Shown here in pieces: positions 3,229-64,000 of a stretch of 64,000 bases of DNA. Source of the DNA: Lineus longissimus (Eukaryota > Nemertea > Pilidiophora > Heteronemertea > Lineidae); assembly GCF_910592395.1 (NCBI RefSeq), contig NC_088317.1:4092001-4156000 (forward strand). Direction: 5' to 3'. A program made the position numbers and the translations under genes. How positions within the stretch are numbered: position 1 is the first letter of the stretch; every line of letters starts with the position of its first letter. The notes under the pieces were generated by a model. The model was not told the origin of the DNA. It did no database searches and worked only from the letters and a program-made list of their open reading frames with translations.

Positions 3229-3311
<83 letters not shown>

Positions 3312-18974: not shown

Positions 18975-21900
18975 ATGGGAAATAACAAAATGGCGGATAC
19001 AGGAAAACCGAGGCTTGTGAGAGCTTCGTACAACTTCAAAGGCACGAATAATGATGAGGTGAGCTGTTATTTGAAAGTTTGCGCTAATAAATTATGCGGA
19101 TCAGTTTGGACCTCAACGACCACCACGCACATTTTCTGGGTTTAGGCTATTGGTCTTTTACCTCATTCACAATGACAAAAATAGAGCATTTACAATGTAT
19201 GTATTACTGTCGATTTTTCAGTTGAACTTTAACAAAGGTGACATCATCACTGTCACCCAGGTTGTCGAGGGAGGTTGGTGGGAGGGCACGCTCAATGAGA
19301 AAACGGGATGGTTCCCTAGCAACTATGTCAAGGAGTATAAGCCAGGTGAGTCCTTCAAGGTATCTGAAATCATCATGAACTTGGAACTGGGGAGATCATA
19401 AGTGAGAAATGTAGAGTGGGGTGGCCCTGTAGAAACCCTTTACAAAATTACAGATAAAGGTAAGTGGGCTCTTCCATGATAGGGTGGTAAACTGCCAGGG
19501 TAGGGTGGGATGCCCTGACAAATGGCCTCGTAGAGAACACTGAACCCAAGAAAAGTATCTTTTTAAGCATGATACTTAGCCTTTAACATTGGTTTGACTC
19601 AATAGCAAGGCAGTTTAGCTTAATCCTTGATTTCTGAACTGTATTTTTGTTGTTTCAGACCCAAAGAGTGCAACCAAAAGTCCTCTGATGGGCCAACACA
19701 AACCAGCTGATCAACTGATCAACAAGAGAGACAGTATGATTCATTATCACCAAGTGGTAAGATATCACTTTATTGTTCGGTTGCAGCCAATATCTTGACT
19801 CTCACTACAACCTACGGTCATTCCCGGTGCGTATTACTTCATCAGTTCAAGTGCGATTTCCTATCTTCTTTGTGAACTTGAGTCATGAAAAGTTCTGACA
19901 ACCAATTTGGGACCACAACTAGTGTCCTTAATGGAGAGGTGTCCGCTAACAGAGGTTCCACTGTACACTATGTCTTCTTTTCAGGTGCTACAAAATGTGA
20001 TAGAAACGGAGCAGGCATACGCCACGGAGCTCCAGACCCTTCTCCAGTCCTACCTGATTCCGCTGCAAACCACGAATAAGCTGACGCCACCTGACTATAC
20101 TCAACTCTGTGGCAACCTGGAAGATGTTCTCGCGTGCCATCAGGTCATACTCAGTTCGTTAGATGAAATAATAAAGTGAGTATCGAAGTTACATTTTGGA
20201 TCATTAGATGGTTTGAGATTCAGGTAGTGACAGTCGACTACATCACATACCTGGGCTTTTTTCCATCTCCAGGTTTGCTAACAGAGAACTACAACACTTG
20301 AATACCCGGTATACATATTGTGTTGTAAGAGCACTCATTTATGAAGACAAAGGAATTTTTTGCGCCAATTACATAGTTTATGCATGATTTATTCATGTCT
20401 GTATAGAAACTCGTTCTATCAATCTTTGCAGACTTCCACAGCCGCAGCAACGTATTGGTGGCATGTTCCTAAGGATGGCGCCACAAGTTAAAAATCTTTA
20501 CGAGAAATATACTGCCAACCACCCGTGGGCTGTCAGTATACTACAAAAATACAAGTAAGTTACCATCTCAGAATGTCGAGAAAATACTTAGTGTAGCCTT
20601 GTGCCATTTAAAAGCTGTTAAGTCACCCAGCACATCAGAGCAAATTCAGAATAAGAAGGGATGAAAAATTGCAACAAGATTGGTTTTCTTTCCCCTTGCA
20701 GGGAGGAACTCAACAAGTACATGGAGATGAAGGGTTCGAACCAAGGCTTGATGCACCTAACGACTTGCCTGTCGCGGCCGTTTATCCGGTTAGACAATTA
20801 TGGCAGCCTGCTAAAGGAGTTGGAGAGACACATCGAGGTGAGTCGGGCATATTCTTTTGCTTCAAATAGTGCCTTCAACTGCTCAAAGGTGCGGGCTTGT
20901 AATCCTGATCATCGCTAGCCTTTCGTTAACTTTGCACATGGACACCTTTACAAATTGTAATTTTTAGTCTTTAGAGTCTTTACACCTTGTTATTCTAAGC
21001 CTCTAGAGTCTTCAAATTTTGTATGTGTAGACATCTCAATATGTCGACAAAGATTTAGGTTGAACTGACCCACTTGCTTTCTTGTAGGATTGCCATGCGG
21101 ACAGAGGGGACACGCAGCGTGCTTTGGCCATTTATAAAGATATAGGACTGCAGTGTACAGAGCTGAGGAAACAGAAGGAAATAGAATTCGAGGTGCTAAC
21201 GGGAACGATACGGGGATGGGAAGGAGAGGTAAGAAATGTGCTTCTCTTCAGTCAGAGTACAGGGTGTTTGCTGAGCTCTTAAAGGTCATCATCGGGATCC
21301 ATTTTCAGGAATAAGGGGGGCTTGCATTTCTGATTTGGTGCACTTGGATCCGCGCCTGATCCTCTGGTTCATTTCATTTCAGGAAATCTCAAAGCTTGGC
21401 GATTTGGTGATACTCGGGCAAGTGCAGATGTCGCAAGAAAATACTGAGAAAAAGGATAGTGTGTTCGCGTTGTTTCCGAGTGTTTTAGTCATACTGCATA
21501 TCAGTCCACGTATGAGTGGCTATATTTATCAGGTGAGAGGCAGGTGATGTAATTCTTGTCAACGTTGCAGGCAACCTTTGGCAGTCAAAAAGCCCCATTT
21601 AGTGAAACTTTGCCTGCAAAAGCCCATGGAATTATTCAACAACACTCTGCTGCATTCATTTTTACTAAAATGTATATCATTTTCACATGAGAAGCTTGGT
21701 AAGCCCTGATGTTGAAACAGAAACTGCCCAAACTCGCAATCACTGTTGCCAGGCATATCATACTCTGCATGAGAATTACGAATTCCCTGAAATCAAATTC
21801 TCACCCAACTAAATGAATAAATTTCCCACCTTAACCTTCCAGGGCAAGTTACCTTTGAGTGGCATGGTCGTCAAGCAGCTGGAAGATTGCGACTCGTATA

Positions 21901-24900
21901 AGCATGCCTTTGAAATTTCAAGTAGGTTCTTGGCGAATGTCATAAAACATCACATTCTGTCTTGATGTCACAACAAATACAGCAAAGTCTCTTTCAGCAG
22001 TGTATGTGCAAAAAAAGAGGGTTTACCAGGGTTTCCGCCAGGATTAAATTTGAGGGGGAACAAAAAAAATTTTTCTAAAATTTTTTTTTTCTTTAAAAGG
22101 GTATATGACCCCTCCTGAGACGTTTTTTGGCCCTAAAACCGCTACAGTTGGCTCCCAAATGCTCTTATTTTACATATCAAATCATGAAAATTACTCATTT
22201 GACAGTAAAACAAACTTTAGTGCTCAAAATTAAGGGGGGGATATCCCCCCTTGAAATATTTTAGGGGGGGATGAATCCCCCCATCGCCCCTCTGGCGGAA
22301 ACCCTGCTGACAATAGTTGAAGTACATTTCTCTTATGAATTGTGCATTAGATTGCGGTTTGATTTATACACAGAGTGGATTGCCGGGACATTCTTAAACG
22401 ATTCGTTCTCATGATAATAACGCCCTCTTTCCACAGGTTCAATGATCGACCGTAAGCTTGTGATATGTCATTCAACGCACGAACAGAAATGTTGGATCGA
22501 CGCGTTAAAACATCAGAGTAAACAAGCCTCATTGCCCGCCACGCCAAAACCACAGACATTACAGGTTGGTTAAAGTTTGCTTATTATGGTGCTATTCCTA
22601 ATGAAAGGGCCAGCCAGGTTGGGCTAGAACTCTCCCCGTATCTCTAATGACTGGCACCTGATGAGAAGGCAGTATGTACCCCATATTTACCAACTGATGG
22701 CTAACACTAACTGGACGTATCGGGTATGAGCCTGAGTTATACCTGAAACTATTTGGCGACGCTTTGTAAATCTCAGCCGAGGATTAAATGTTTAATGAGA
22801 AGTATTAAAAAGAGTTCAAAGGTTAACGAATTCTCCCCACTTCTGTAGCTTTCTAGCAATCACAACAGCCAGTCCAGTATCACAGTCGTACCTCAAGCCA
22901 AAACTGCCCGAGTCCTTCCAGATCCAGTCATCAAGCCGAAAACATGGACGATGTCGTGTTTACGGCCGAGCACGCCCATAAGACCGTCGGCGGCTTTATC
23001 GAAGGAAAATCCTAATAATAGTCCCAAGATTGGACGGAAGCACTCAATGTCGCGGAGAAAGGGAGGTGAGATATGTTGGTTGAATCAGAAGCTTTCCATA
23101 GTCATTGGTTTAGGCCAATTAGGATTGGACTATTTTGAGAAATAGAAATTTTTAGGAAATGAGCTGGGTTACCCGGGGACGACATTAGTCATAAAAACAA
23201 ATGGTACCATTAGAAAGCGTTGATCGTGATCTTTTCGATGAATGGTCATGTCATTATGTCACTATAAGTTTTTGGTATACTGAATGATATGAATATTGTG
23301 TCACAATATAACAAGTAATGAAGGGGGGGGGCATAATCTCATTATGTTCAAATCCTGGAGGACGCATCTAAGGCTCTAAGCTCGGTTTGAATGTTGAAGG
23401 CGTATAGTGAGGGGAATTGTTTCCATTGTTGATTTACCATGGTGTGATAGATCGTTTTTGGCATATTCTTGCGGGAAGTTTTTCATAAATTTGCAAATTT
23501 CCTTGGCACTGCAGCGGAACGAACACGATCGGAGGACGGTTATTCGATGAAGAAAAGTTAGTATTTCTCGGATGTCTTGGGTTGATTTGTCCCTATGGTA
23601 CACTCCCATTACAGTGTTTGTATTAAGGAATGTCCAAAAGCTTCTTGAGACTTCCTTCCATATTGTCCAATCAGATGTGCTGAATTGTACAGTCATAGAA
23701 AATAAGCCAATCACAAGCTACATGTTTATTTTTTAGGAGAAGTCCAGTCAATTTTGCTTTCAGACGTTGTTAGTTTCACCAATTTTCAAAAGCAGAAGTA
23801 GACCAGCACTGACCTCACAATAGAGCCATCTGATTTGCTCGTTCAAAATGAGCACGTCAGGATGCAAAATTTGTCACTTTGATTGGACGATCCACTAAAA
23901 CGAACCCAATTTTTGACTCTTGGAAATCTCTAAATGCCTGCAAATCACTCTGCCCACAGAGACTTGCAGGAAAGTAAAAACACTGTGATGGGAGTGTATT
24001 TCCTTGCATGCGCAAGTGTGTCAAGTGAATGTGTGTAATGCCATGTTATGCCTTGGAGTACCATGTTGTGGTGCTTTCTCCTAGCACTGTAAACCATGTC
24101 ATGTTTCCGACAGTTATGTGATTTTTCGCAATTTGGGCAAGCACAAACTTATCAGCGCAACTCACTAAATTTCAGCTCTGATGCATTACCATTGAATTTC
24201 TGCAGCAGACATGGAATTTAGTCAACGCGAAACAAAAAAATGAGCTAATTCGCGAACTTTTGATGTCGTGAACACTACCTGGTTTACAGTTTGCTAGACT
24301 TGTGAGTTATTTGCTGTGTTTAAATACCCTGGCATGGGTAGGTATAGTGCATGGAGATCAACCCAAGACCTCTTTGTGTTGAAAGATCCATTTTTGATGA
24401 GAGTTGCATTGTATTGTTATGCTGTTCAGAGCACAGGTTGTTGGCGGTTCAAAGCGGGGTAGTGCCAGTCACCGCCCTGTGTTACTGCCTGTCGGCTATG
24501 AATAGTTCTTGAATTTAGGTGTGGAGGCCCATTCTGTGATGCATCAGAAGAGTCCGAACATTTAACTTATGTTTTTAGTGTACTCCGAAGTGAAGTTTGC
24601 TCCTTTGATATCAGGGAAAATTGCTAGAATACACTAAAGTTTGCTAAAATAAGCTCCAAATCCTTTTAAAATACTATTTTTGGGGTTGGCAGATCTGCAG
24701 TGCTGAATTGCTTGATAGATAGTCTCATTGTTGTGTGTATTTTTGTGCATTTTGCCTGTTTTGTTTCAGGGAAACACTTGCAATCAGGGAAAGGTCTGAA
24801 TCCAACACTTTCTGTTAGATTTCAATTTGGGAATTTGTTTCTTTTATTTTTGTTGGCTTGACGGGTAAAGATTCAGCAAAAGAAGGAACATAGGAACTTC

Positions 24901-27900
24901 TCCTAACAGACACCTCTTTATTAAGGACACCCTCGCAATTAAGGACATAAATTTGGTCCCAAATTGTTTGGTTCCATTCAATTTGACCTCTCTAATCAGG
25001 ACATCTCCTTATTACAGACAGCATTTGTCCAACCACAGTATGTCCTCAATAGAGAGTTCTACTATATGTTTCTTTCAGAAACAGTTAAAATTGGCCTTGG
25101 TTGATTTTAGTGTTAGGGTCTTCCCAACATTCAATATACCTTAAAGCAAGCATGGACGAGAGAATCGATACTTGCCGGAAGTAAAATACTGAATTCGTAC
25201 GTTGAATCTGTTATTCGTCAAGCTCCTGGGCTTCAAGGTGTCACCAAAGTCAGGAAGATGAGGAGTGCTTCAAAACATGTTGGTTGTGACCGGCCCTCGT
25301 GGATCGATGTGCTTGCAGTTGCATGTGTGGTTTTCAGTTCCATGGGTGATATGAATAAAGGCTAGCAAATGCTTTTACTTCAATTTTGTACAGAAAGGCC
25401 AAGTGTAAATGTACATGGAGTATTAGATAAAAGCATTTACTACTCTTTATTCATATCACCCAGCGTCAGTGTTTCTATATTCATTTTGCTTTATTCGGAT
25501 TACGTTGCGTCTATTCGGTACATGTTGCTTTGTGTCATTTTGTTTTATTTTTGAGAGATTTCTCATATGTTTCAATGTAATTTCTGACGTGGTTTATAAC
25601 ACTTTTATGGAACATCACTTTGGTAGTATTTGTGCATGTGCATGGGGTCTGCATCTTGAACCATCACGGTCTAACATTTTCACAATTCTGATGTACGTGC
25701 TCATTAACAAAAGTGAGCAGATGAATTTATGAATGTTAACCCTTGAAGGGTCAAGATGGGAGTCAGTTGCAGGTGTTCTTTACATTCAACACATACTGAT
25801 AGTCGGAAAATTTACTGCACTTGCTTTCAAGGCTGGACCAACACCTCAGACCACCAGAGAAAAAGTTCTATTTGAATTTGAGATAGCTACCGTACATGAA
25901 GTCTTTTGACTGCAGCTTCCCAAGAGTTCCTTTATTTCATATTTTGAGCTAAAAAATAAGAAAAAAATTACCCCTTTCCATTACCAAAAAGTTATCCTTG
26001 CTCTAAAGGCTTCAACGTTAAAACGACACAAACGCCATCTTCAGGGAAAGAAAGGAACTGAAGTAATCTCTTTATAATCGGGTTTAGTGGAGAAATTCTC
26101 TCAGTTCCTCTCTTTCTCTGAAGATGGCGTTTGTGTCGTTTTTACGTTGAAGCTTTTAGAGCAAGGATAACCTGCTGGAAAAGGGTTTTTGGTCCACAAA
26201 TATTGATGTGGGTCCATAGAGATTTATGTGGTCCAGCCCTGAAAGTGTTAAACTTTAAATTTCCTACGTTATTCTTGACCTTGGCAAGTTATGACTTAGA
26301 ATGTATTGAGGAGAGAGATGGCTATCAGCAACAGTGGTTTAAGCTATCAGCATTGGAGAAGAATTTATTAGAACTTCCAGTTCTTGCTGTGGGCCTCTAA
26401 TCAGGAAATCAAATGTTTTCCTGAGTTGGTAAATGTCAAGTTCCAACTACTGGATGTTAAACTGGGAAATCAGTTGGTTCAGCCATGGTACGACAAGTGC
26501 AGAGGATACATGGATTCATTATTTTTTCTCCAAGGACTGTATGTTACCTCTCTCTATAATAATAAGGAGTCTTTTATATTGCGCAATTCCGTGACACTAT
26601 AGTTCTCGCTCAAAGCGCTTTGGGATATCATATTATTACCCCGGTCTCCACAGAAATCAATCAGGGGTTTCAAGGAGCAACCAGAAGGCGCTCACTTGAA
26701 CTTGACCAGTCGGGGAACCAAGCAGTGACTAGTCGAACCCACGACCTCCTGATCATGAGGCCGACTCTCTTCTACTGCGCTACCGCTGCCCCGATATGTC
26801 ATTGATTTACAACGATTTGCTTTGTTTTAGTCGACGATGTGAAAACGTTAGAGGATGACGCTGCCATCTTACGAGTGATCGAGTCATATTGCACAAGCGC
26901 GAGGACACGGCATACAGTCAATTCATGTAAGTACGCCACCTGCGGGTGATAATGTTTTCCAAGTTTTGCGAAGTGAGTCCGACGTCATGAAAATTGAAAA
27001 AGAATACCAAGGTTTTACAGAAAACCAACAGCGTTGCTAACTGTAGCATTATTGCTGACCTTGAATTGATGTATGAATGCAACTAACTACAAAAACTTTT
27101 CAAGATCTCAAAACATATCTGAAACACTTTCGACTCAATGATTATCGTAACGTTTATTTTCATGACTTCAGACTTGCACGCCATCTATTGTCTCATTTAT
27201 GCATGATTGTTGCGGAAAGGTTTATCCAGGCATGCAGATGTTGGGCATGATCGTTTAGCGCCCCCCTGTGTTCTAGTTAGGAACGAAGGCTGCTCACGCA
27301 TGTCACCATGATTCTGCGCTTGAAATGCTCCTAGTCCTAATCAGAAACTACATCTGACCTGATGCATTACTGTTAAGCATTACTGTTTTACTAAGCTCGT
27401 TGTGACAATCTCCATCGCAGATTGACATTTCCCCCTGATTCTGAAAATAGAATACAATGTAAGTTCTCATATTGGATGTGATACTGTACATCTGAACTTT
27501 CGCAAATTGCTTTACAATTATTCCCCAGCCTGATCCAGCAACCTTTCTGGAACCACACTGACACATTGGCCATTCCAGGCCAGTCAGATCTGAGGCTCAA
27601 CCCATGACCTTTCGATCACAAATCGGACACTCTTTCACTAAGCCACCGCGTTTCCTGCCACTGGCTGCCTGGATAAATTTTCACTCACTTGTTTCCACCT
27701 TTTGTTCTTATTATTTTCCTTCTTTGTTGTAAACAGTGTTTTGGCTTGTGGTACCAAGAATCTTTGCAAAACATCATGTGGTTGCTAACTTTACAAACGA
27801 TTCTGAGAATTCATGTTTTGGGGACAAATCGTTCAAAATGATATAATAGCTGAAAATGTCATCTCTTCAGAAGTTGACTGTTTTAAAATTTTCAATGGGG

Positions 27901-30900
27901 GTATGGTAATGCAATATCCTTTCAACAAAATAAGCTGTCTGATTAAAACATCTGCTAGAGATAATCAGATTTTGTTTCCATTTATATCCGCTTATGGTTG
28001 ACATTTCCTGTGATAAAAGCATTTGGTTAGTTAAACAATTTTGCTTGGGAACGTTTGCGGTATTGTAGCCCAATCATAAAAATATTAAGCTCATGAAAAT
28101 AAAGGGATTTACATTCTTATGTTACGTTATCACAGAAGTATGTCTTTTAACCAAACTTCTCTCAAAGAATTCTGTGTTGGACAAATTTCTGCATAAAAAA
28201 CGGCCTTAGTTTATAACTGTCTCAAAAGAATTTTTAAAGGTTATTTGGTACCACAAGCTATTGTTTTGAACTTCTACTCCATAGTGGGATAAATGGTTAT
28301 TGGTGTCTTTAGAGCTTTCGGTATATTTATTTCAGCTTGCCTTATATGGTGTCTAATTTACGTTTTCCCACATGTCGCACCCCTACCTGCCTAGTCGATG
28401 TCGCCCCCTGCTAAAACGTGGCAGTTTGATAGATCCCCAAACTGGATAATGATGTGAAATACAATCCCTGGCGGTGAATCCAAAGATGTGTGGTCGGTGT
28501 GCTTGTCTGAGCTGATGGTTTGAATTGTCATCCTCCCATAGCAGGCTTTTGATTCAATCCTAAAATACGTATCAAAGTACAAGCGTATTTTAGAAAATAC
28601 ACTAAATCAAATTATGAGCGTATTTTGGAAAATACGCTGAATCAAATTACGAGTGTATCTTGAATAAGATTCAAAAGTGCTGTGCAAACAAGTGATTGAA
28701 ATCTCTGCTGCCTGTGTTTATAATCGCTTCCATATGCAACAAAAAGATTTCATGTCTACTGTGTAAAAGTGTTAATCAGTGGGTTTGATATTCTTGTCGC
28801 AGATACCCGCGATGACAACTGCAAACAAGCAATTATTGTCGCCTATGATTTAAATCGGAGGTAGCAGGGGTGTTTGCGTTTGCTGGGCTGGGGGTCCTGC
28901 TATGGGAGGATGTGTATTTGGGTTGAAGATGTGAAAGATAGGAGTTAGTGCTTGGCTCTTGGAGAGATTGGAGTGCATGCATAGATCAGGACGTTGGGAA
29001 GTTTACTGTCAATATCTCACTTAGGCTTCCAAAATGACTTACTGTTTGGAACAGAAGCAAAACGTATTCCTTTTACAAATTTCTTTCAAGTATTTTGCAT
29101 GGGATAGCTATTGTATTGGTGACTTAGTCCCTTTGCGATATCAATTTGTTGTCAAAACTGCTGTACCGGACTGCAAGGCTGGAAAAGAAAGTCGAGTCGT
29201 TGTTGGGTTGGGCCATGAGTGGTGGCGCTGCATGGTGGAATTTCGACGATGAGATGCTGAAGATACTACACCGATGGAGCTGTCTGGACGGTCTGAATGC
29301 TACACAGTTGCTACGCCTCGGTGACGTTGTGGTGAAGTCTTCGGCGCTGTCGGTCCGGCTGTGATGATGGTGATGATGTCTTGTGGTGTTGTAACTCCCT
29401 CGTAACTTTGGTGTTGGCATAGTTGTACGTGCGGGAAATTGACTCCCGGCAGTTGCAGCCGCTTCATTATATATCCCGAACTAATATTTTTCCGCATGTT
29501 TTTGAAATTGAAATTTGCAATGAAGCCTGTATTACTAATACAGTGGAACCATTACTGGGTCGATCTCATACTGAACCTTTGGGTCTATACTCCATCTAAA
29601 CGTAGGGCTCCGGGGTATATCTTTAAAAGCTTGATAAGATCAAGAACCTTGGTGGGTTGACCTTTGCATTAAGGGATCTACTCACCTGAGGATATCAGAA
29701 GCGTTCTTGGTAAAGAGAGCTCAGATCCAGGCTTCCTAAAATGGCATCCTGTTAATACTGAGCTGATTGACTGGCCGATAATCAGATATGAACTAAACCA
29801 AAACAAACTTCAAAACACACACCTGACATGGATTGAAGGATTGCTTTTGAATGAAGATTATTTTTAACTAAGTCAAGTCAACATCATTTTCATGTACAAA
29901 AAGTCTCGGTAGTCGCTATATTAAAAAGCCCTAACCTTCACACATTACATTGCACATTTTATATTAATTTTTCAAAATGTTGTGTTTTTTTAATTTTTGT
30001 AAATCATTGTTATTAGTTGTAATGGTGTTGTCACTGCTTTTGAGTCTGCACATACAGTTCCAGCCTTTACAGACACTGCATGTTAATCACTTTAGAGGGT
30101 TAAAAACCATTCTAACCTACTGAATCTAGGCTTGTAAAAAATGGTAAAGTTAAGAATTTAATCTCGAGTTAAAATAGGCAAGACTATTTTGGGTTTCAGA
30201 GCAGCCAGCTACCGCTTCCTTTTTAAGTCTTTGGTGATGGAATACACATTGGTTCTTCGCGAGGTTTAATGGTACTTTTGAGAACTTTAAGTTTTGAGTA
30301 AAATCGGGTGTGGTGTCTGTTGATTAAGGCTCTATGTTGTTAATTAATTTCTTTGCTAGATTTAACTGTGGTTTGATTTAATAGCTAGCTTTAGTTATGC
30401 ATGTTGTAGACGGGAATTTTGATGTGGTTAAAACTAACTCCCTATCAAGAAAATCAGAAATTAGACACACACTGTTTTGTTGATTTGAAAAAACAAAAAT
30501 TACACACAGGATTATGATTTCATGATGCCTCCCGAATCAAAATGAAATTTCCTTTGTTTAGCATGTTCTAAAAATATAATATAGATTTTGCTGGGGGTTG
30601 AGTCTAATATTTTACAAATCAATTTGACAACGTTTTAGTTAGTTAGGCTGCAGCTTATCTCAATTCAAGCAATTAATAACTGGGGGGGGGTCTTTGGTTG
30701 TCAAAGCAAGACTGCTCGGGTGGATTGAGAATGCTTACCAAAATCTGAGGCACCAGCCAAAGGTTATGGAGATAATTTGAGATCCACCCAAGTGGTCTTG
30801 TTTAAACTTTGTTACTGCTACTATTTGTAACTGGATAGATCACATATGCAACTTAGGAAGGACCAGCCCAGATCCTTAATCCTGTTAATGATCCGTGTAA

Positions 30901-33900
30901 AGTCAAGGACTTCAAGCTGAAGTAAAAGAACAAATCTTCCTGGGGATGTGCTAGAAACTAGCTTATGGTTGTAGTCCTGAAACTTGAAAGAGACCCACAC
31001 ATCATTATTTTTGATCTTATATAACATTTGGGGGGATAGCAAGCATGGAGTTGGTCTTTACAAAGAGAAATCAATAGAAATTACTGGGGATTCAAACTAC
31101 AGACCACTGATGGAGAAATTCTACCCTTGTACTGGTGCTCAAAAATGTTTTTAGTTAAATTCGAAAGGGGTACATTGAGCTCACAGTTAGGCTATTTTTA
31201 GATCTGGGTCTGGTCCTATCGTCACTAACCATCTCACCGTAACCATAGTAACGTGTGTCTCTCACCTAACACTCTGCTTCTATTTAACGCGGCACGTGCA
31301 GTGGACCTCGCCAAGTTACGACGGGACGAGGAGGAGAAATGTAGCCCGCAACATCATCACCATCATCCGGACTGTCAACATAAACAACTTATTTCCTCGC
31401 CGGAGTGTGACGATTATGCTCGCCTACAGCGTGGCGTCATGCGGGGATTCTGCTGTGCTAGTTTTCCCATCACAAAAAGCATCGCACGGACTCTCAAAAG
31501 ACTATGATGGAGTCGGCCAAGGGGCTTTGGTCCAATCATAAAATATCGACTTTTTGTATGCTAGAATTGCCCTGTGGACAAAGACTGCTTTTGTGTCATT
31601 TGTCAACAGATAAACAGCAGAATGATTGCTTTAGTGTCATTTGTCATCAGATAAACAATTGGAGTTCTCTGGGATCCATTCGGATTTCTTATTGTTCAGT
31701 GTCCCTTGCCGTGTGTGAGGGTGCAGCCTTGAAAGTTGGAACTTGTACCGTTTTGTCACCATTGCTAGGATGTGTTACTTCTAGGAATCGTCTTGTGCTG
31801 GTCCAGCTGGAACAGCTTGGTGAGACCTGGTGTAGAAGATAACGGAGATGTGTGATTACAAGGAAGGGTTATGATAAGTAGGTTTAGCAATATCCGTAAC
31901 CACTTCATGATGAGATGTACCCTAGCATTGTGAGGTTCCCGTTGGCTTTCTTGTGCAACTTTTGTGGCTATGACGTAATGCCATCGAGTCAGGACATCAT
32001 GAAACCAGCAAATTCATGCTGTCATAGCATAGAGGATGGCATACCTGTCTAAATTACTGGTCCATTGAATCGAATTAATCGAAATAATTTACAGACATTA
32101 CAACAAATTACATGACATTTTCCTTATGAAGTTGTATAAAAATGTTTATTTATTTAGCTATAGTAATTAAATGGACAGTGGTTGCATTTATCATCAGGAT
32201 TTGAGGAGTAGGGAGTGAGGGGGGGAGGGGTTGATGCATAATTGACTCATTTCTAATAGTTTCTGATATCATGGGCGGTGTCTAATTACTCATTTTTGGG
32301 CAGCCCAGTTTGCAAGATATTGGGGCTTCATATATAGCATTGTCTTCATCTAGTTGTGAATACATCATATCATGAATAGACATTTGAACTTCATAACTGT
32401 GTACATAGATACAAAAGCTCATTGAGGATTTATTAGGGGGGAGGGCCTGAGTCCAGCCTCCCAAGTTTTAAGTGGGCATTCACTTCATTCTGAGGAGTTC
32501 TACCGGTAATTGCTTTAGGATTTCAAATTCTAGCCAAAATGGTAGTTCCTATGGTTAACCCTTAAAGTGTATGCAAACTGTAAAAACAACGAAATGTGGA
32601 AGCTTGTGGTATACCTGTGGAGGTACCGCCAAGTTCTTGGTGGGGTGGGGCTTTGGGCATGCACCAGATGTACTCTAACCTTTGAGATTCCATGATCTAT
32701 CCTGTCATCCAGTGGAATTTTCTGACTGAGCTTCTTATTTTTCAATGCAATAATCTGGGTGCAGATGTACCTATGTTGAGATATCCTTCATTGGTTTATG
32801 TGAATCTGTAAAGTTCTTTGATACGAATCACTTCTGTAGCTTTAGATGACTAATATAATGATGAAAAGAAACACCTTTCAATCTAAGAAACCCTATTGAG
32901 CAGTGCTTGGTTGACCTCAAGGATTGGAATGACCGTTTGCTAGCCTTGAAAAGGCCAAAGTGCAATAAATGTATTTGTAATTCCTTATAAGGATGATAAT
33001 AGATTTGACTGTCTTAAGTCAAGTTGTCTGTGTGTATGTTTAGAACATGTAGGCTTATGTTTATGTGGTCGAGTATGGTTAGGTTAGCAGCTCTTTTTTA
33101 TTCGAAACTGTCCTTTGCAGGAAACTGCAGGAAATTCTGCTCAATTTATTTTTATTTATCTTCTGGGTTTCACCTACAAAGGCATAAGTGCAGGTACCAG
33201 TGATATCAATTGTACACTCACTGTTTAGCTGAGCTGGTATAATACAACTTCAGGTCTGCCGAAATGGTCTCATTGGGTGATATGAATAAAGACTAGGAAA
33301 TGCTTTTACTTAAAACTTCATGTACATTTACACTAGGCATGTCTTTACAAAATAGAAGTAAAAGCATTTACTTGTGTTTATTCATATCACCCATTGTCTG
33401 TTTATGGGACGTTCAGGTCTGCCAGCTTGGCATGAATTTCATCACTGAATGACTTTCGAAATGATAGTAATCATCCTGCACTATATATGTTTATGTCTCG
33501 GTGCATGTGTTTTTTTACATCGATGCCGTATCATGGCTTCGTGTCTCTCGTATGTGTTCATGTTTAACTTACGACGTAGGGAAAATAAAAATGAGATTAA
33601 AGATCTTTTGTTGTTCTTTATGAGGTATGATTGTGAATGGATGATGCAGCATTTGCAGGGTTGTGTGTGCATCCTCCTGGACCCTCCGCCCTGAGGGTAA
33701 CATTCCCAGACTCCAAGAGACTGTGTATGTTACATGAGGCTTGTACCACAGTCACTTTGCCAGCAAAGAAACTCCCTCGATTCAAGTGCCAGACTCTTGG
33801 TGGTTGTTTGTTTGCGGCGGCTGCTCCAAAACTGTGGAACCAGCTGGCGCAAAAGCTTCGTAACACTGATTCCCTCCAGACTTTCAAGTCAATCCTAAAG

Positions 33901-35321
33901 GCCTACCTTTTTGGAGAAGCCTTTGGGAAAAAAGCGCTCTAGAATACCCACTCGCTGAGTAATTGGAGCGCTTTATAAATGCCAACATTGATTGATTGAT
34001 TGATTTAAGATTACACCCCTGGTAATGCTGATATATGTAAACCCCATATTTCCCAAGCAAGGACCTGGTTCTTCAAAGCATTGTAAGTCGATCATCAAGT
34101 CCTCCTCTTTCAGTTGTGGGGCATTTGGCAGGCAAGATATCACCTAGATACTGAACAGATTTTGAACAGCCTAGGCCTGTTGGGAGAAAGAGAGTACTGG
34201 CTTGTTGTCCTATGCCTAAGCCTTTTCCCCTTCAGTCTGGTTTGAATCAAAGGGAGTAAAATTTGCCAGTTATGATTTACAATATCCGTTCTTTCTTTAG
34301 CACTGTTAGATTGTCCACAAGTACTGATTGCGGAAGAAGAGAAGATCATCATTGAAGATATGGACATCATCGAAGAAAAGTAAGTTGTTTAGTTAAGACT
34401 CCGGAGATTTGCTAAAACCTCAGTGGTGTTATAGGGATATGGCCCGTACCGAGAGAGATGAGGTGCATAAAGCATCCATTGCTATCTTTCTTGTTTTCCT
34501 TCTTTGGACAGTCTGTGAAATATAGACCACCAACGAATGCAATTGTCTTGGTGATGCGGACTTGATGTGAAATTCTCCCCTTGTTTCAGAACTCTAGTTG
34601 ATACTGTGTAAATTCTTCCCTTTGTTTCAGAACTGTAGTTGATACTGTCTAAATTCTCCCCTTGTTTCAGAACTCTAGTCGATACTGTCTAAATTCTTCC
34701 CTTTGTTTCAGAACTCTAGTTGATACTGTCTAAATTCCCCCTATGTTTCAGAACTCTGGTTGATACTGTCTAAATTCCCCCTTTGTTTCAGAACTCTAGT
34801 TGATACTGTCTAAATTCTCCCCTTGTTTCAGAACTCTAGTTGATACTGTCTAAATTCTCCCCTTGTTTCAGAACTCTAGTTGATACTGTCTAAATTCTCC
34901 CCTTGTTTCAGAACTCTAGTTGATACTGTCTAAATTCCCTTTTGTTTCAGAACTCTAGTTAATACTGTCTAAATTCCCTTTTGTTTCAGAACTCTAGTTG
35001 ATACTGTCTAAATTCCCTTTTGTTTCAGAACTCTAGTTGATACTGTCTAAATTCCCTTTTGTTTCAGAACTCTAGTTGATACTGTCTAAATTCCCTTTTG
35101 TTACAGAACTCTAGTTGATACTGTCTAAATTCCCCCTTTGTTTCAGAACTCTAGTTGATACTGTCTACACCCTAAAAGATCAAATCAAGGAGCTCACACA
35201 GGAGCAGAAGCGACTCCGTAGAGATCTCGAGTGTGAAACCAGGGCGAGAAAACACCTAGAAATATCACTGCGGAAGTCGGTTCGCCATCTAGTCGAACAA
35301 ACGTGCGATGATATTTCATAG
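18975..35321 (+). CDS. ARHGEF7: Beta-PIX-type Rac/Cdc42 GEF, complete, 15 coding exons
   Basis: PIX proteins activate Rac/Cdc42 and bind PAK (SH3) and GIT. Exons: 18945-19058 (ATG 18975 or 18990), 19222-19345, 19659-19756, 19985-20175, 20432-20554, 20702-20837, 21088-21228, 21383-21532, 21843-21921, 22437-22564, 22849-23065, 23515-23556, 26831-26926, 34301-34379, 35147-35321. The frame closes at about 620 residues. The SH3 ends [20 protein letters not shown]. The DH domain starts [16 protein letters not shown] and includes [20 protein letters not shown]. The PH domain includes [18 protein letters not shown]. Then come the conserved [17 protein letters not shown], the GIT-binding segment [15 protein letters not shown], and the coiled coil [20 protein letters not shown]. 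There is no N-terminal CH domain in this window. The protein ends QTCDDIS, not the vertebrate DETNL PDZ ligand. An alpha/beta-PIX ancestor (ARHGEF6/7) is equally consistent. Confidence 0.93.
19870..19970 (-). repeat. Pogo/Tigger-like MITE fragment
   Basis: On the minus strand it reads cagtggaacctctgttagcg, then ggacacctctccattaagga. It shares sequence with the copies at 24907-25075 and 43888-44060. The cagtggaacctct end is typical of pogo/Tigger-type elements. It lies in a PIX intron. Confidence 0.5.
22027..22306. mobile_element. MITE with CAGGGTTTCCGCCAG inverted ends
   Basis: A 15-bp perfect terminal inverted repeat (cagggtttccgccag / ctggcggaaaccctg) bounds a 280-bp non-coding element with internal G-run/C-run inverted repeats. 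CAGGG ends recall hAT-type elements, but no 8-bp target duplication is evident. It lies in a PIX intron. Confidence 0.8.
24907..25075 (+). repeat. Pogo/Tigger-like MITE copy
   Basis: Contains cacctctttattaaggacac, aattaaggacat, ctctaatcaggaca and a closing tatgtcctcaatagagag. It is a diverged inverted-repeat element of the same family as 43888-44060, inside a PIX intron. Confidence 0.5.
25343..25462. mobile_element. Hairpin MITE, GGGTGATATGAATAAA ends (copy 1)
   Basis: A 120-bp element with inverted ends tgggtgatatgaataaa / tttattcatatcaccca and inner arms aaatgcttttac / taaaagcattta. A second copy of the family lies at 33274-33393. Both sit in PIX introns. Non-coding. Confidence 0.85.
25974..26186. 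repeat. Long hairpin repeat, possible MITE
   Basis: Arm 25974-26062 (agttatccttgctctaaagg ... cgccatcttcagggaaag) is nearly the reverse complement of 26100-26186 (ctgaagatggcgtttgtgtc ... gagcaaggataacctgctgg). A loop of about 40 bp lies between them. Non-coding, in a PIX intron. Confidence 0.8.
26557..26792 (-). mobile_element. tRNA-derived SINE
   Basis: Reading leftward from 26792, a tRNA-like head has an A box in gcagcggtagcgcagtagaa and a B box gggttcgactag. The body follows and ends aaagcgctttgagcgagaac, cggaattgcgcaatataaaa and a short AT-rich tail. The gcgctttgag/atataaa tail recalls the LINE 3' end at about 33970 (agcgctttataaatgcc), which may be the mobilising partner. That link is inference. 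Confidence 0.75.
27590..27662 (-). repeat. tRNA-like SINE head
   Basis: The minus strand reads ggtggcttagtgaaagagtg (A-box region), then gtgatcgaaaggtcatgggt and tgagcctc (diverged B box). It is a degenerate tRNA-derived head in a PIX intron, not a functional tRNA. Confidence 0.55.
28555..28675. repeat. Short palindromic tandem units
   Basis: About 2.5 units of roughly 43 bp of the form gcgtattttggaaaatacgc followed by tgaatcaaattacgag. Each unit holds an internal palindrome. Function unknown; in a PIX intron. Confidence 0.55.
31302..31507 (+). CDS. Candidate alternative 3'-terminal PIX exon
   Basis: Bases 31300-31301 supply an AG acceptor. Splicing from the donor at 26926 (phase 1) enters an open frame [17 protein letters not shown], then five His residues, then a Cys-containing tail, with a stop at 31505. 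Vertebrate PIX genes have alternative C-terminal exons in this interval. The predicted sequence here is not clearly alike, and the pyrimidine tract is weak. It would remove the coiled coil. Confidence 0.3.
33274..33393. mobile_element. Hairpin MITE, GGGTGATATGAATAAA ends (copy 2)
   Basis: Same family and size as 25343-25462, with ends tgggtgatatgaataaa / tttattcatatcaccca and an internal aaatgcttttactt / aagtaaaagcattt pairing. An ATT on each side (cATT|gggtg ... caccc|ATTg) could be a target duplication. Confidence 0.85.
33680..34008 (+). mobile_element. 3' end of a non-LTR retrotransposon (LINE)
   Basis: The frame ending at 33942 carries [20 protein letters not shown] followed by [19 protein letters not shown]. 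This is the conserved extreme C terminus of CR1/Jockey-type LINE reverse transcriptase ORFs. It is followed by ggagcgctttataaatgcc and an (ATTG)n tail at about 33988-34007, as at LINE 3' ends. It is 5'-truncated and dead, in a PIX intron. Confidence 0.8.
34573..35160 (+). repeat. ARHGEF7: 15 tandem copies of a 3' splice site plus exon start
   Basis: A repeat of about 39-41 bp (ttccccttgtttcag + aactctagttgatactgtct + aaa) occurs with 15 AG acceptors. The last AG (35145-35146) starts the real final PIX exon. Each of the 14 upstream copies has the same pyrimidine tract, AG and first 20 exon bases, but reads ACT GTC TAA (GTG TAA in the first), so it would stop at once. Copies vary by a few bases: TCTCCCC, CCCCCT or CCCTTTT in the tract, one ttacag, one AACTGTAG. 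Confidence 0.97.
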
Positions 35322-37578
35322 TACCTATCGTGATAGAGCCAAACCTATGTACCAGGCAGAAGTACTTGTTCTATAACCAGTAGGCAGGGTTCCCCATTTT
35401 GCAATTTGGTACCAAATCAGGTAGTTGACAACCCACTGGATTCTCCCTGATTTGACTGTGACATGGAGACACCACGGTGTTGCCAGATTGGGGAATTTCA
35501 TGGAAATAGCTCACTCTAGCACTGTTTACATGTGGTCAAAGTACAGCCAAATGTGCGATGTGATCTTGCCTATAGTCAAGTGGTGTAAAACCAATTAACA
35601 TATTATTGAAAGCGTTCTTGATAGTGCCAAGGTTTGCTAGTCTGCACTAGTCTGGACTGGAATAAAATAAAGTTCCATAGGTAATGGTTTACAAAATCTA
35701 AGTCATTCAATTAGGACATTCACTATCTTTCTTATTTGATGAGTGTTGATAAGCTGTAGCTGTGCATTGAGAAATTGTTAAAGGCCTCTGCTCATGATAT
35801 AAAAATCAAATTCTTATTGTATAGTAATTGTTGTTTGCATTTTGTCGTCTTGTGAAAGATGCTGTTATAAGGTACATTAAGGAGTGCAGAATGTAATAAA
35901 GATATCAGCCACTCAGCCGAAGACTTGGGTCTATCCAAATATGACCAGTATGTCGCCCACGCCAAGTTGTAAAAAAGCAGGTCAAACGTTGTTCAGAGAG
36001 ACATGTTATGTAGTTTTTGCAGTTTTTGCAGCTTTTGAACTTTTTGTGGGGTTTTGGAATTGCACTATCACAGTGAACCGTAGAGGGTTGTCCAATCATT
36101 ACAGCTCAATATTCTGTGTTTCTTGTGACACTAGCCTACTAAATATGCAGGAATATACAAACAGTAAAGAAATTGGAACATTTCTTATATTGGGGGAATA
36201 ATATGTAAGGTAAGGTCGTACAATTACGGCCCCTAATGTGTAGAAAACAGCTGGCATTACACATAATGCACACAGAGGCTACATTTGTACCGGGGCTTTA
36301 ATTGTATCACTTTACCTTACATGTAGGCCTGGTGTGTTGAAACAGTTTTTTATGAAATGAAATTATACATCATTTCAGTCATTGTTGTGCATGTGGAAGT
36401 TTTTTTTTTGCTGTTGATACTAAATGTGCCTTTTTCAAATAGATTTAACTATGCTATTAAGGACTGTAGCGAGAGTATATGGTGTCAACCATAGCGTACA
36501 TATACTTCAAGGCCTTTTGCATTGTGCGGCCTGCAACATGTGACGTCATCCCTGGTCTAGGTGTCGGAGGAAGGCTCCTGTTGAGAGTGAAAGCTTTGGG
36601 TAGGTTTCTCCAACTAAAAATCCATTTTTGTCTGCTGAATGAACAAGGGCATTTGTAGTAGAATTGAACTTCAGGCTTGGCAAGCTCTCCTTTTGAAGAC
36701 AGCGGTCGGGTTGCATAGAGGGCATCAGATTTTCAGGATGAAATGGAATACACAGACATTTCAGAACAGTGTACTTTTCAGTGTCTCTGTACGCTATTTG
36801 GCCCACAAAATAGGTATGGGGTCAATTTACCATATGTGTTTGATAGCTGGTAGTATTCTCAGACTCCTCATTTGAATATGCCAATGGCTATTGGATCCCT
36901 TTGTCCTGTTGTTACAGTAATTGTAATGTAATCACCAGTATATGATGGTCTAGTATTTATCTCCATATTTCTAGTTATGTCTTAATGTAAATAAATAATC
37001 ATGTTATAAAGATTGCCTTAGTTCTTTCCACTGCTTTGAAGTGGATTTTCTGGCTTCTGTGGCCCATTTGTTACCAGTATATTTTCACATGTAGCTGCTT
37101 CTGTGCTCAAAATCAAAATCATTGAAGCTGCTGAATCCTCCGGGAAGTAAAACCTGGCAGGGAGTTAATTGCCCAGCCTCTGTCTCTAAATGAACAGTTC
37201 ACCCTAAACCGAGGATGGGCATTCTACTTTATCACAAGGACAACCATTGACATTCTGGTGTAACAGGAATCACTGTCCTAGTTTATTGCATTGCTAAGAG
37301 AAATCAGTGACCTAGATTCCACCTGCAATCATTTTGCTGCTTCCAGAGAGGTAGTGTCTCGAGGGGCCAAATTTTCCCCTCAACACTTGCTTTACACAGT
37401 CTTGTCTGCCTTATGAGCTCCCCCTGCCCTTCAAATACAAAAGCTCTTGAGGAACAGACACGTTCAAAGATATCATGCCAGGGGTTGAAGTATATTTAGC
37501 GCCTCCATTTGGAAGTTATTTTTCCTTTTTTTCGATGGCTCATTTAGTCGAAGGCTAAATCTTGACCAGCAGTGAGTT
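35322..37578. other. PIX 3' UTR and gene-free DNA
   Basis: Probable 3' UTR followed by intergenic DNA. No further exon or structured repeat was recognised. Confidence 0.5.
35661..35672 (+). terminator. Possible PIX polyadenylation signal
   Basis: Overlapping aataaaataaa, about 340 bp after the PIX stop codon. Further aataaa motifs near 35893 and 36990 could serve longer 3' UTRs. Confidence 0.4.
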
Positions 37579-37645
37579 ATCCGGGAGTTTCGCAAATCGC
37601 CCGAAACTCCTCGATCCGCGAAACTCTAACGCGAACGCCTGTCTC

Positions 37646-37702
37646 ATTTTTAGCTCACCTCTTAGCAGAGGTGAGCTTATCCCATACCGTGGCGTCCGTC
37701 GT

Positions 37703-37746
<44 letters not shown>

Positions 37747-38785
37747 CGTCGTCCGTTAGCAGGGCACGTTTCGTAACTGTTAGAGCTATTGAGTTGAAAC
37801 TTGGTACACATGTACCCTTATGTAATGACACCTGGGAGACTAAGTTTCGGTCCGATTCGTTTCATGGTTTGGCCACCAGGGGGCCAAACGTTAAAAGTGA
37901 AAATATGCAATATCTCCCTTAATAGAAGTCGGGAAATTTTGAAAAAAATATGGTAGGTACTTCTAGCAAAGGTGCATCATATATCCTCCGGGTTTTTGAT
38001 TTGACCTCCTTTTCAAGGTCACAGAGGTCAAATGGTGTAAATTAGCCGTTAGGATGTAACGATGGCACGTTTCTAAACTGCAATGACTATTGATACCAAA
38101 TTTGGTACACATTTACCCCTTAGTCAGGTGATCTCAGGGACCAAAGTTTGGTCCAATATGATTCACCACTTGACCACCAGGGGGCAAAATCCAAAAACCT
38201 TAAAAATGTGATTATTCCTTAACTTCTTGCCCGATTGCCACCAATTTGATATCATGGGTACATCTAACCACCATACAGTATATGTCACACAGGTTTTTAA
38301 TTTGACCTTCTTGTCAAGGTCACAGAGGTCAAATGGCGTAAATTCGCCGTCAGGCCGTAACTATGGCACGTTTCTTAACTGCAATGACTATTGATCACAA
38401 ATTAAGTACACATGTACCCCTTGGTCAGGTGATCGCAGGTACCGAAGTTTGGTGCGATCTGATTTGCCGTTTGGCCTCCAGGGAGGGGGCCAAATCCTAA
38501 ATTCTTCAAAATGCCATTATTCCTAGTAATGACTTGCCCGATTGGCACCAATTTTATATCATAGGTACATCTAATTCTAACAACCATTCAATGTGTCACC
38601 CGGGTCTTCTTTGATTTGACCTACTTTTCAAGGTCACAGAGGTCGAATGTACTGTAAATTGGCCATTTTGGGGAAATTGTAATTGCTTGGACCTACATCA
38701 AACCTAACACTACATGACACAAGACCATGCTCTTTATCCATCTTTCCTCCACATGAGGTGAGCACAATGGCCCTGGCCATTTCAT
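37646..38785 (+). mobile_element. 1.2-kb non-autonomous element, copy B
   Basis: Inverted relative to copy A at 2190-3366. It starts tttagctcacctcttagcag, passes through a (GTC)n tract at about 37697-37756 and three internal units with ttcaaggtcacagaggtcaa, and ends gtgagcacaatggccctggccatttc. Homology is continuous over its length; most of the size difference is the shorter triplet tract. No coding capacity beyond low-complexity frames. Confidence 0.75.
37695..37757. repeat. (GTC)n microsatellite
   Basis: A trinucleotide run inside copy B, the complement of the (ACG)n run in copy A but shorter. Confidence 0.95.
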
Positions 38786-52740: not shown

Positions 52741-55700
52741 ATGCATTTCTTACTGCAACTCGAGATGCAAAGTCTGATGGAGAAACTCAGCCACCCTGCA
52801 ACATATCATATTCTCATCTATATTGCTTTCGGTTTTAACCTGATGCCCGTGGCGTTCCATCACCTATTCATGCTCATTGCGGCGCGGGAGACGCAGTACT
52901 GGTGTCTGGTAGGTGTTAGAGAGGTTGCGCACCCTTCGGACTCCCACTCCGACTTGGTTCCGATCTCCGACGTTGAATTATAGATATCTAGCGATATATT
53001 CTGTTTGGTCGATTTACTCAATTTGCAGATTACGACATCCACATTCAGACTTAGACTGAATAGAATAATGCAGTCATTGATTTGCATACATTATAAAGGT
53101 CTTCTGTCATATCCAAAAAGAATATTCCAGTATTTTCACAGCCTTGCTGCACTATTCTCCAGCGCAGTCAGACCGATAAAATCGGCGTTTCCCGGCCTCT
53201 TCTCCTCCATCATGATGTAACTTGGTTAGTCGGGTACCGGCTCCTTGGTATTAACGTAAGATTTTTCCACAATTTTACATAACTGCTCGATAAGACGCCA
53301 GCAACTTACGCCAGAGAAAACGCAATGCGATTGATGAAGGAGGAAAATTTATTTTTCAACCATAATCTCTTCTTGAAATTGTGACTATTAGTGTCAAAGC
53401 GAGAAGGAATGTAGAAGAATCAAAGGTATATGGGGACCTAAATCTTCATCAAAATAACGTAATATCAAGCAAGTCATGCTGTAATATTCTTCTGAATTAG
53501 CGTGTGGTTTGTTTTTTCTTGCTTGGACTAAAAACTAAAAACTTCCGTGGTTGAGGTATATTGAGAAAATTTTTCATTCTTGGAATTATTTCCTACATGC
53601 ATAGCCACGTAATGAGGATCGCCTTGGGCGAGATTTGGACTATTATAAGTAGGTCGAATATTCTTCTTTATGAAAAAGTAGGAAAATATCGAGGATATAC
53701 GCAATGAAAAGGCTTATGTCTTATGAACGAGCCGCGAAGAACTTATCTCGTCCTCGACAACGTCATTCATGCTTTGTCGCACATAAAAGGGGATGACCCC
53801 GTTAAACGAGAATTGAAATATCAAGTGTCGTCGGCGTTCACTGAACCATTAAGCTGGTATTGATAAACTACTCTATTTCATTCCATGTATTTGTGTAATA
53901 AATGCACTATTAGGGAGTATTCGTAAAGCCCCCGAAACGTAACGTGAACGTTTATCTCATTGTTCGACCTCGTGTGGACGATGTCGAACAATGGGATAGG
54001 CGTTCACGTGGACGTTTCGGGGATTTGCGAAAACTCCCTATTTACTAAAGCGCCCCGCAAACTAGCGATCATGATCGCAGGCGACAAAGAATCTCTCGTT
54101 TGTTGTGGTCATCGCAGGTGCACTTTACATGACTCGGTGATCAATCAAAGTCACGCCAGTGAAATCCGGTATTACTCGCAGATGAGCCATCTGTTTATCG
54201 CCTGTCTCAGCGACTATTATCGCAGCGACAAGAATCGCCCGTTTGCGGGGCGCTGAAGGTGTCAATAGGAAACGCTAGCAATTGCTTGGGAATAACATAA
54301 GTTGAGAATTGACTATGTCGGCATTTTTCTTTTGGGAACTTCCTTGTAAACAAGGTGCGCGGCCATGGGCGTGCCATTTTTGTCTGGCAGGCCGTGTATC
54401 GGGGCGGCTGCAATAAAAATTGTACCGCCGTCTAACAAGGTTGCTCTTCTCTTCACAATATAATCCGTGCATGTACATGTAGATTCGTTCCCCTTACTTC
54501 CAGGCACCTAATGGGACCGTGGCAGCCTGGCAAAACGAATCCATCGTCAACGCGACTGCACAAGACAGGGAGTGCTATTTTTACGACGAGGCTACTTTGA
54601 AATCTCGAGGTGAATGCTCGAAATGGATGTACTCTCTCGAAAGGAAAAATGTCATTTCAGAGGTGAATAGAATTCTGGTAATTCTTTCATTGAGATTATA
54701 CTGTTGGTCACCGTTGTCTTTTCTAAAAACAAGATTTTTTAAAGGGAACTTATATTTCATTCGCGGATTTCGCGATTAACCTATACAGTCACAAAAATAA
54801 AATAAAACCTTGATCGAAATGTAACTGCTTTTTCTCAAATTTGGCAAATCTTGTTGATTTTCCAGTTCAACCTGGTGTGCAAGGAATCCTGGCTGCCCGA
54901 ACTCGCCACCAGCATCTATTTCCTCGGAGCAGCAGCTGGGGGCCTGGTTGGCCTCCTAGCAGACGACTTCGGCCGGAAGTTGCTAATGTTGATTTGCGTC
55001 CTTGCCAGCATCTTCCTGGGTGTCGGCGTCTACTTTTCACACATTTACATCCTCTTTGTGTTGTTCAGGACGATACAAGGTTTCCTGGCTTCGGTAAGAA
55101 TCATAACAAGCATTTCGGCGACAGGGTTCACAAGTTTCTGTGAAGGTGTGGGCATGGAACAATCAGACGTACGGTAACAAAAGGATGTTGTTGTACAAAT
55201 ATAGAATTAACCTTTCGACTTGTTGCGGGGGGGGGGGGGTCAGTAACGCTGTAGCGTAGAGAATGAGGAGAACCCCACTGCACTTTAACCGGAATAAGTA
55301 CACTGTCCTATGCAAAGGTGTCCATCAGTATCGAATAAAATAGGCATATAATGATTGAAATCAGAGACTAAAACACCACAACGACTTTAGATACAGAATA
55401 CTGATAACTTTTTATCTTTACAGGGTGCTCAAGTGTGCCTTATGGTGCTTATGCTTGAGAGTATACCAACGCGCATGCGCAACAATTGCGCAAGCTTTAT
55501 CGGAATATTTTGGGTGGCGGGATTTCTGGTGATGCTGCTACTCGACTTCCTCATACAAAACTGGAAGTTTCTGGAGCTGGCTGTGGCGCTACCTAGCGTC
55601 TTTGCTCTGGCTGGAGTGTGGTAGGTTGACAATGTATATTTATCCCTGGTGTCTGTCTTTGCTATGCCTGGGGAGTGGTATAAGAAACTACATGTATAAT

Positions 55701-63205: not shown

Positions 63206-63384
63206 TGCTGATTGGAGATGTAAAAGCCAAGCTATGGCTAAGATCATTATAAGCTCTTATTTTCCAATGCTGACAATCGAGCGCCCGGTTACCTGACTTA
63301 CCGCTCGAGTTCTTATTTTAGCGCTACCCATCAATTAGCATCGGACATGGTTTGGGTTGTTTCTTCTCGGAAATCCGACTTTCT

Positions 63385-63402
63385 ATGCTAATGGCCTCAT
63401 AA
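63385..63402 (+). promoter_or_regulatory. FBXO45: Upstream ORF in the FBXO45 leader
   Basis: ATG CTA ATG GCC TCA TAA ends 11 bases before the FBXO45 start codon. Immediately after it, a second ATG at 63403 opens an out-of-frame ORF that overlaps the coding start. These could limit translation of the main frame. Confidence 0.4.
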
Positions 63403-63413
63403 ATGAAAGCGAA

Positions 63414-63986: not shown

Positions 63987-64000
63987 GTTTGTATATACAC

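Follow-up and report, generated by a model that had tools for sequence, protein, structure and literature searches.

The 64,000-nt stretch of the Lineus longissimus genome analysed here (the window, G000:C10:4092001-4156000) was read from an assembly of 391 Mb in 30 contigs and holds what its sequence identifies as a PIX (ARHGEF6/7-type) gene, whose last coding exon is preceded by a minisatellite of 15 units, each bearing a candidate 3' splice site (Table 1). Joining 14 exons, with GT-AG at all borders, gave a frame of 601 codons that is open throughout, and the encoded 601-residue protein comprises SH3, RhoGEF (DH), PH-like, RhoGEF67_u2, and betaPIX coiled-coil domains, with Pfam matches above cut-off to PF00018, PF00621, PF16523, PF16614, and PF22697, and a match to PF00169 below its cut-off. 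This combination of domains points to PIX; the exon chain as read is without a CH domain. The product of exon 14 matches PF16523 with 54.6 bits and the ARHGEF7 coiled coil with E values of 3.5e-12 (PDB 3l4f) and 4.7e-11 (PDB 2w6b). A whole-genome search with PF16523 returned nine matches, among which the PIX locus alone lies over the betaPIX_CC cut-off; the other eight all lie under it, and a second PIX locus serving as a backup was rejected on this basis. The predicted C terminus (window 35301-35321) reads CDDIS and lacks a PDZ-binding motif of the DETNL type, which is a feature of mammalian beta1-PIX.

The minisatellite lies across the border of intron 13 and exon 14. Its unit consists of (i) 19 to 21 nt of intron end, namely AAATTC, a pyrimidine tract, and CAG, and (ii) 21 nt of exon start, with successive AGs spaced by 39, 40, or 41 nt. 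A preliminary description of this DNA had reported the acceptor and exon start as repeated 15 times at 39-41 bp, each time with a tract and CAG and once as TTACAG, and we could confirm this: Tandem Repeats Finder (TRF) gave 15.0 copies with a period of 40, 95% matches, and a score of 1003, CAG is kept in 15 of 15 copies, and TTACAG is that of copy 14. The tract of copy 5 is interrupted by an A (CTATG). With 15 head-to-tail units of 40 bp, the array falls within the unit range of 10-100 bp that is taken to characterise minisatellites. A DNA search of the whole assembly with the array found this one place only, and a dispersed origin of the unit was accordingly rejected. Minisatellites are common in this genome, as 190 kb of unselected sequence contained four arrays (period 20-100, at least five copies, at least 94% match), three of them within one 10-kb locus.

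Nearly every copy of the array would, on paper, make a complete 3' splice site. The tract and CAG are present in all 15 copies, and in 14 of the 15 the AG-free stretch includes a yUnAy branch-point candidate, at a distance of 24-29 nt from the AG; in copy 4, a change located in copy 3 has removed yUnAy and left CTAA. Counted through the AG, the AG-free stretch measures 31-33 nt in 13 copies, 40 nt in copy 6, and 64 nt in copy 1. When scored with an acceptor weight matrix built on the 12 other PIX acceptors only, the array copies reached 7.8-11.6 bits, compared with 3.0-10.7 bits (mean 7.5, leave-one-out) for the real PIX acceptors. The interval 19059-35146 contains 925 further AGs, in introns and exons alike; nine of them reach the weakest array copy and three reach the array median, the best being the AG at 34235 (12.2 bits). 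A single strong decoy acceptor is not rare, but 15 consecutive ones are far beyond chance. The array-bearing intron folds less stably than 20 of 20 shuffled sequences (z +6.5), which points the opposite way from RNA structure hiding the acceptors and led us to reject that idea. Recursive splicing in PIX was likewise rejected, as AG is followed by AA in 15 of 15 copies and directly by GT in none. The units contain neither GTAAG nor GTGAG as a donor word, with a single GTAAA in copy 1, and no new intron of the kind that can arise from a tandem array is evident; the spacing of 39-41 nt sets the acceptors apart from the NAGNAG class.

The acceptors differ sharply in what they are predicted to encode. 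Joined to the donor at 34380, each of acceptors 1-14 would add 19 nt of exon and then run into a TAA (14 of 14), which arises where the exon start of one unit meets the intron end of the next and is therefore common to all upstream copies. The predicted tail is EEKTLVDTV in 12 of these 14 readings, EEKTVVDTV for copy 2, and EEKTLVNTV for copy 10, whereas acceptor 15 joined to the exon 13 donor gives the coiled-coil reading. Use of acceptors 1-14 is thus predicted to remove the PIX coiled coil while keeping the SH3, guanine nucleotide exchange factor (GEF), and PH domains, which agrees at sequence level with the preliminary description. Its further claim, that only the last acceptor leads into the coiled coil and that the other 14 stop after TLVDTV, stands except for the tails of copies 2 and 10; and the acceptors, which it placed in one phase, are indeed all served by one donor, although their spacings are not all multiples of three. 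The LVDTV tail presumably resembles a class III PDZ ligand (D-X-V). Ordinary nonsense-mediated decay should not remove transcripts with stop codons in the last exon, and since the predicted TAAs lie there, truncated transcripts should escape it.

Table 1. Features of the PIX gene and its array (window positions) and further arrays that end at exons (assembly positions)
Feature	Position	Strand	Remarks
PIX (ARHGEF6/7-type) coding region	18990-35321	+	14 exons, GT-AG borders, single open frame, Pfam matches
Exon 13	34301-34379	+	ends ...DIIEE-AA; donor GTAAGT 34380-34385
Intron 13, to last acceptor	34380-35146	+	767 nt; 210 nt to first array acceptor
Acceptor-like AG upstream of array	34510-34511	+	extra; 7.4 bits; reading EENL-stop
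Minisatellite	34570-35167	+	TRF; 15 copies of 39-41 bp; AG ends, copies 1-8: 34589, 34630, 34670, 34711, 34751, 34791, 34831, 34871; copies 9-15: 34911, 34950, 34989, 35028, 35067, 35106, 35146
Acceptor 1, closest to donor	34588-34589	+	original upstream intron flank kept; TTGAT 24 nt upstream
Acceptors 2-14	34629-35106	+	tract and CAG each; yUnAy branch-point candidate except copy 4
In-frame TAA stops, one per acceptor 1-14 (14 in total)	34609-35128	+	predicted; first 34609-34611, last 35126-35128
Acceptor 15	35145-35146	+	sole predicted route into coiled-coil exon; unit identical to unit 6
Exon 14, coding part, coiled coil	35147-35321	+	PF16523 match; PDB 3l4f, 2w6b
AATAAA, last exon	35661-35666	+	probable poly(A) signal
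L031, JAK exon at end of FERM domain	G000:C2:9198600-9200600	-	53 bp, 5 acceptors, each AG/GTG
L032, last exon of sphingosine-1-phosphate (S1P) lyase	G000:C1:17324600-17326400	-	57 bp, 4 acceptors
L035, putative signal-peptide exon	G000:C1:9084500-9086100	-	52 bp, about 20 acceptor-like units
L046, receptor protein tyrosine phosphatase (PTP) exon	G000:C15:9630100-9631800		32 bp, 9 acceptors; Pfam E 4e-11, PDB E 8.7e-15
L047, Piezo exon	G000:C11:18150500-18151900		42-45 bp, 3 acceptors; Pfam E 1.3e-14, PDB E 2.3e-12
L050, NSUN2 exon	G000:C11:11248200-11249300		32 bp, 3 acceptors; Pfam E 2e-10, PDB NSUN2 E 2.2e-10

The preliminary description had considered the conservation of the AGs across copies notable. 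We found that if 7 changes (the private ones) to 13 changes (an upper count) fell uniformly on the 40 unit positions, the AG would be spared with P 0.51-0.70; an untouched AG is expected by chance, and we rejected it as a sign of selection. Adjacent copies resemble each other more than they do when the order is shuffled (P 0.008), and the unit with the presumed working acceptor, unit 15, is the same as unit 6. Both features are as expected of slippage or of unequal exchange that included the working acceptor, and local duplication and exchange therefore explain the uniformity of the copies without selection.

Further arrays of this kind place PIX in an apparent class of exon-edge arrays, with at least five further genes in this genome (Table 1). 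Their identities come from single exons for S1P lyase, PTP, Piezo, and NSUN2, and from three joined pieces for JAK. The JAK assignment follows PDB JAK2 (E 6.6e-5), with a single-exon Pfam match to Jak1 below cut-off and no JAK family matched by the joined query, and that of S1P lyase follows PDB (E 1.6e-6), with no Pfam match. The exon at L035 starts MASYQLLLAAAFLVTLQLTHA, followed by GTAAGT; it matched no family, and the signal peptide is a putative reading. The exact exon start that is common to the last two copies amounts to 43 nt in JAK, 7 nt in S1P lyase, 4 nt in NSUN2, 3 nt in PTP, and 1 nt in Piezo, the copies of which have diverged. When the reading frame of the true exon is applied, the upstream acceptors hit an early stop in JAK (4 of 4), S1P lyase (3 of 3, each reading AAPCI-stop), PTP (8 of 8), and NSUN2 (2 of 2). 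In Piezo, where the first of the three acceptors is weak, of the two upstream acceptors, one hits an early stop and one lengthens the product in frame by 15 residues. By these readings, a full-length product would require the last of 3-15 acceptors in PIX, JAK, S1P lyase, PTP, and NSUN2, and one of the last two in Piezo.

Tandem acceptors are not a preferred motif of the genome as a whole. In genome-wide counts of three motif forms, we saw no excess over the reversed pattern, neither for tandem TTTCAG triplets with 25-55 nt between them (1324 vs 1387 reversed), nor for the tract-restricted form (43 vs 122), nor for the TTGCAG form (25 vs 33), and a genome-wide preference was rejected. From the TTTCAG matches listed, which lie on C1 and on the first 17.0 Mb of C2, we took all 15 places with overlapping matches and no single matches (L030-L042, L052, and L053); TRF rejected L053 as a tandem repeat, and the other 14 are arrays. 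The tract-restricted form contributed five of its six array places besides PIX (L043-L047; the one omitted has the same unit as L044), and the TTGCAG form four of six places (L048-L051; the two omitted have the same unit as L051). Altogether, 24 places besides PIX were examined, 23 of which are arrays by TRF. An exon lies at the end of six of these places, by homology in five cases and as the putative signal-peptide exon in one; at the other 18, no array-linked exon was recognised, which is weak evidence of absence, as the reading there covered one strand, that of the motif, and one side, 3' of the final motif. As a side observation, L033 (G000:C1:7551800-7553500) comprises 17 copies of 53 bp whose consensus unit combines TTTTCAG, which resembles an acceptor, with GTGAGT, which resembles a donor, in the manner of tandem micro-exons.

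How often neutral arrays might begin at acceptors can be roughly estimated. The genome holds ~452,000 TTTCAG sites (extrapolated from 253 kb), and TTTCAG is used by 4 of the 12 PIX acceptors; with an assumed intron number of 150,000-250,000, some 11-18% of TTTCAG sites would be true acceptors. Of the 14 TTTCAG arrays taken from an unselected part of the genome, three end at an exon, two of them by homology. As this proportion is near the expectation, arrays appear about as frequent at acceptors as elsewhere, in small counts, which suggests that they are not strongly purged.

The window also holds other elements. Opposite-orientation copies at 2301-3400 and 37600-38700, 98.8% identical over 982 bp and made of 301-bp tandem units, adjoin a GAC/CGT trinucleotide array and are probably one mobile or satellite-like element. 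An inverted pair within 1-889 (1-163 vs 727-889, 94.5% identity), made of 21-bp repeats, looks like a foldback or miniature inverted-repeat transposable element (MITE)-like element. Downstream of PIX, translations read by eye gave transporter exons at 54483-62153 and an F-box/SPRY reading frame at 63339-63998, which we take to be SLC22-type and FBXO45-like, respectively.

Published work on competing acceptors bears on the choice among the 15. According to excerpts of PMC9225289, splicing prefers the upstream acceptor, above all under intron definition (the proximity rule of Reed and Maniatis), and exon definition weakens this preference in favour of sites nearer across the exon. Where two acceptors lie more than 12-20 nt apart, the same source has the choice typically made when the sites are first recognised, each with its own tract and branch point. 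If the machinery scans from a branch point to the first AG beyond it, as excerpts of PMC1431707 describe, the branch point decides.

We consider it likely that the PIX array is a tolerated minisatellite by-product that was born on an exon edge, and not a selected device. A ~40-bp tandem duplication across the border of intron 13 and exon 14 would have expanded to 15 copies. The unit would be a self-contained 3' splice site, with a branch-point candidate (TTGAT in its exon part or CTAA at the junction), the pyrimidine tract, and CAG, so that each duplication would yield a working-looking acceptor and each junction a TAA. The splicing machinery would then face 15 near-equal acceptors for a single donor. 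We infer that acceptor 15 is in use for a substantial share of splicing, because PIX is otherwise intact and is the sole betaPIX_CC locus above cut-off; by the same argument, the intact exons of PIX, JAK, NSUN2, and the other genes suggest that, despite the proximity rule, splicing gets to the last acceptor with sufficient frequency. Acceptors 1-14 may leak, and some PIX with SH3, GEF, and PH domains, ending in EEKTLVDTV and without the coiled coil, probably leaks out. Between the two options of the preliminary description, a splicing sink and a neutral minisatellite, neutral birth is the better supported, because arrays occur at five unrelated homology-confirmed exons, TTTCAG tandems are not enriched, and the invariance of the AGs is at chance level; the evidence does not support a regulatory sink under selection.

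Several points weigh against a tolerated by-product. The proximity rule (PMC9225289) predicts the use of acceptor 1, by which nearly all PIX would be truncated, and the case for acceptor 15 leans on its exon having stayed open. The 15 copies in PIX exceed the 3-9 seen at the other homology-confirmed exons, and the PTP and NSUN2 arrays, whose units carry 3 and 4 nt of exon, would therefore be intron-end arrays and not true exon-edge copies. The neutral expectation depends on the assumed intron number and on small counts, and the evidence as a whole is the sequence of one assembly.

Were the proximity rule to hold, acceptors 1 and 2 (introns of 210 and 251 nt) would take most of the splicing, PIX would be mainly a coiled-coil-less protein ending in LVDTV, and the coiled-coil exon would be minor or dying. 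This fits the preference for the upstream one of competing 3' sites, above all in short introns, that excerpts of PMC9225289 describe; copy 1, moreover, has its original upstream flank and a branch-point candidate, and the less stable fold of the array intron (z +6.5, 20 of 20 shuffles) means that the acceptors should be exposed. We nevertheless regard it as unlikely, given that the coiled-coil exon is intact and near ARHGEF7 (PDB 3l4f E 3.5e-12; PF16523 54.6 bits), and that the truncating upstream copies before the exons of JAK, NSUN2, S1P lyase, PTP, and in part Piezo would, under this rule, put most of these genes out of action as well. It seems more improbable still that the array was selected as a splicing sink or rheostat, whose length determines how much PIX is trimeric and how much lacks the coiled coil. 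AG and stop conservation is within chance, tandem acceptors are not enriched over the reversed pattern, such arrays are also found in unrelated genes, and the encoded tail is altered in two copies, notwithstanding the near-identical, clean truncation predicted from every upstream copy (TAA in 14 of 14) and the role of its own that mammalian betaPix-d, without leucine zipper and PDZ motif, has according to excerpts of PMC7135283. We give very little credence to the copy number being an assembly artefact: runs of identical units (copies 7-9 and 11-13) and the reading of a single assembly would allow for one, but individual copies differ by private changes, four types of tract occur among them, mostly in runs, and the genome has comparable arrays built of other units at other places.

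A wider reading, which we offer tentatively and with more doubt than confidence, is that the arrays before the PIX, JAK, Piezo, NSUN2, S1P lyase, and PTP exons form a class in which splicing, contrary to the proximity rule, goes reliably to the final one of as many as 15 equal acceptors, or else that array length acts as a rheostat; in the latter case, PIX would be a mix of the trimeric protein and the coiled-coil-less LVDTV form. Acceptor competition is usually studied in pairs, whereas here 3 to 15 (perhaps 20) near-equal acceptors stand before exons of well-known genes. The genome would thereby provide a natural test of acceptor choice, in which the full product depends on the last acceptor; usage by rank, distance, and intron length could be learned from it, as could whether exon-edge minisatellites stay silent or give rise to truncated isoforms, which annotation may miss.

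Turri et al., in 1995, reportedly described a minisatellite that supplies multiple donor sites in a human interferon-induced gene (IFI6/G1P3). The likeness to PIX lies in the multiple splice sites, which are donors there and complete acceptors with exon starts here. Introns are also said to have been born from tandem arrays (Zhuo et al., in 2007); in both cases tandem duplication supplies splice sites, but PIX has no evident new intron, and one donor for 15 acceptors. While minisatellites that carry splice sites are thus known, a long series of complete acceptors was not found described in the open-access literature, of which excerpts on splice-site-bearing tandem repeats and acceptor competition yielded no comparable case, which is not proof of absence. 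Units of ~30 bp in ~4 copies at exon-intron borders change the splicing of human segmental-duplication genes, according to excerpts of PMC2812944; those repeats gave new introns in young paralogs, whereas the PIX unit is without a donor word and PIX is the sole betaPIX_CC locus above cut-off. A prawn lectin family was rejected as a parallel, as the alternative acceptors lie in exons other than the repeats in the excerpted text of PMC7536079. The predicted truncated PIX can be compared with the mammalian neuronal splice variant betaPix-d, a PIX form that has neither leucine zipper nor PDZ-binding motif; the excerpts of PMC7135283 do not mention an acceptor array for it. Within this genome, the JAK array has AG/GTG, unlike the AG/AA of PIX, a recursive splice site being an AG directly followed by GT. 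Finally, as in NAGNAG sites, neighbouring acceptors in PIX compete for one donor; in PIX, however, they lie 39-41 nt apart with separate branch-point candidates, and the choice among them should therefore fall at the first splicing step (PMC9225289, in excerpt).

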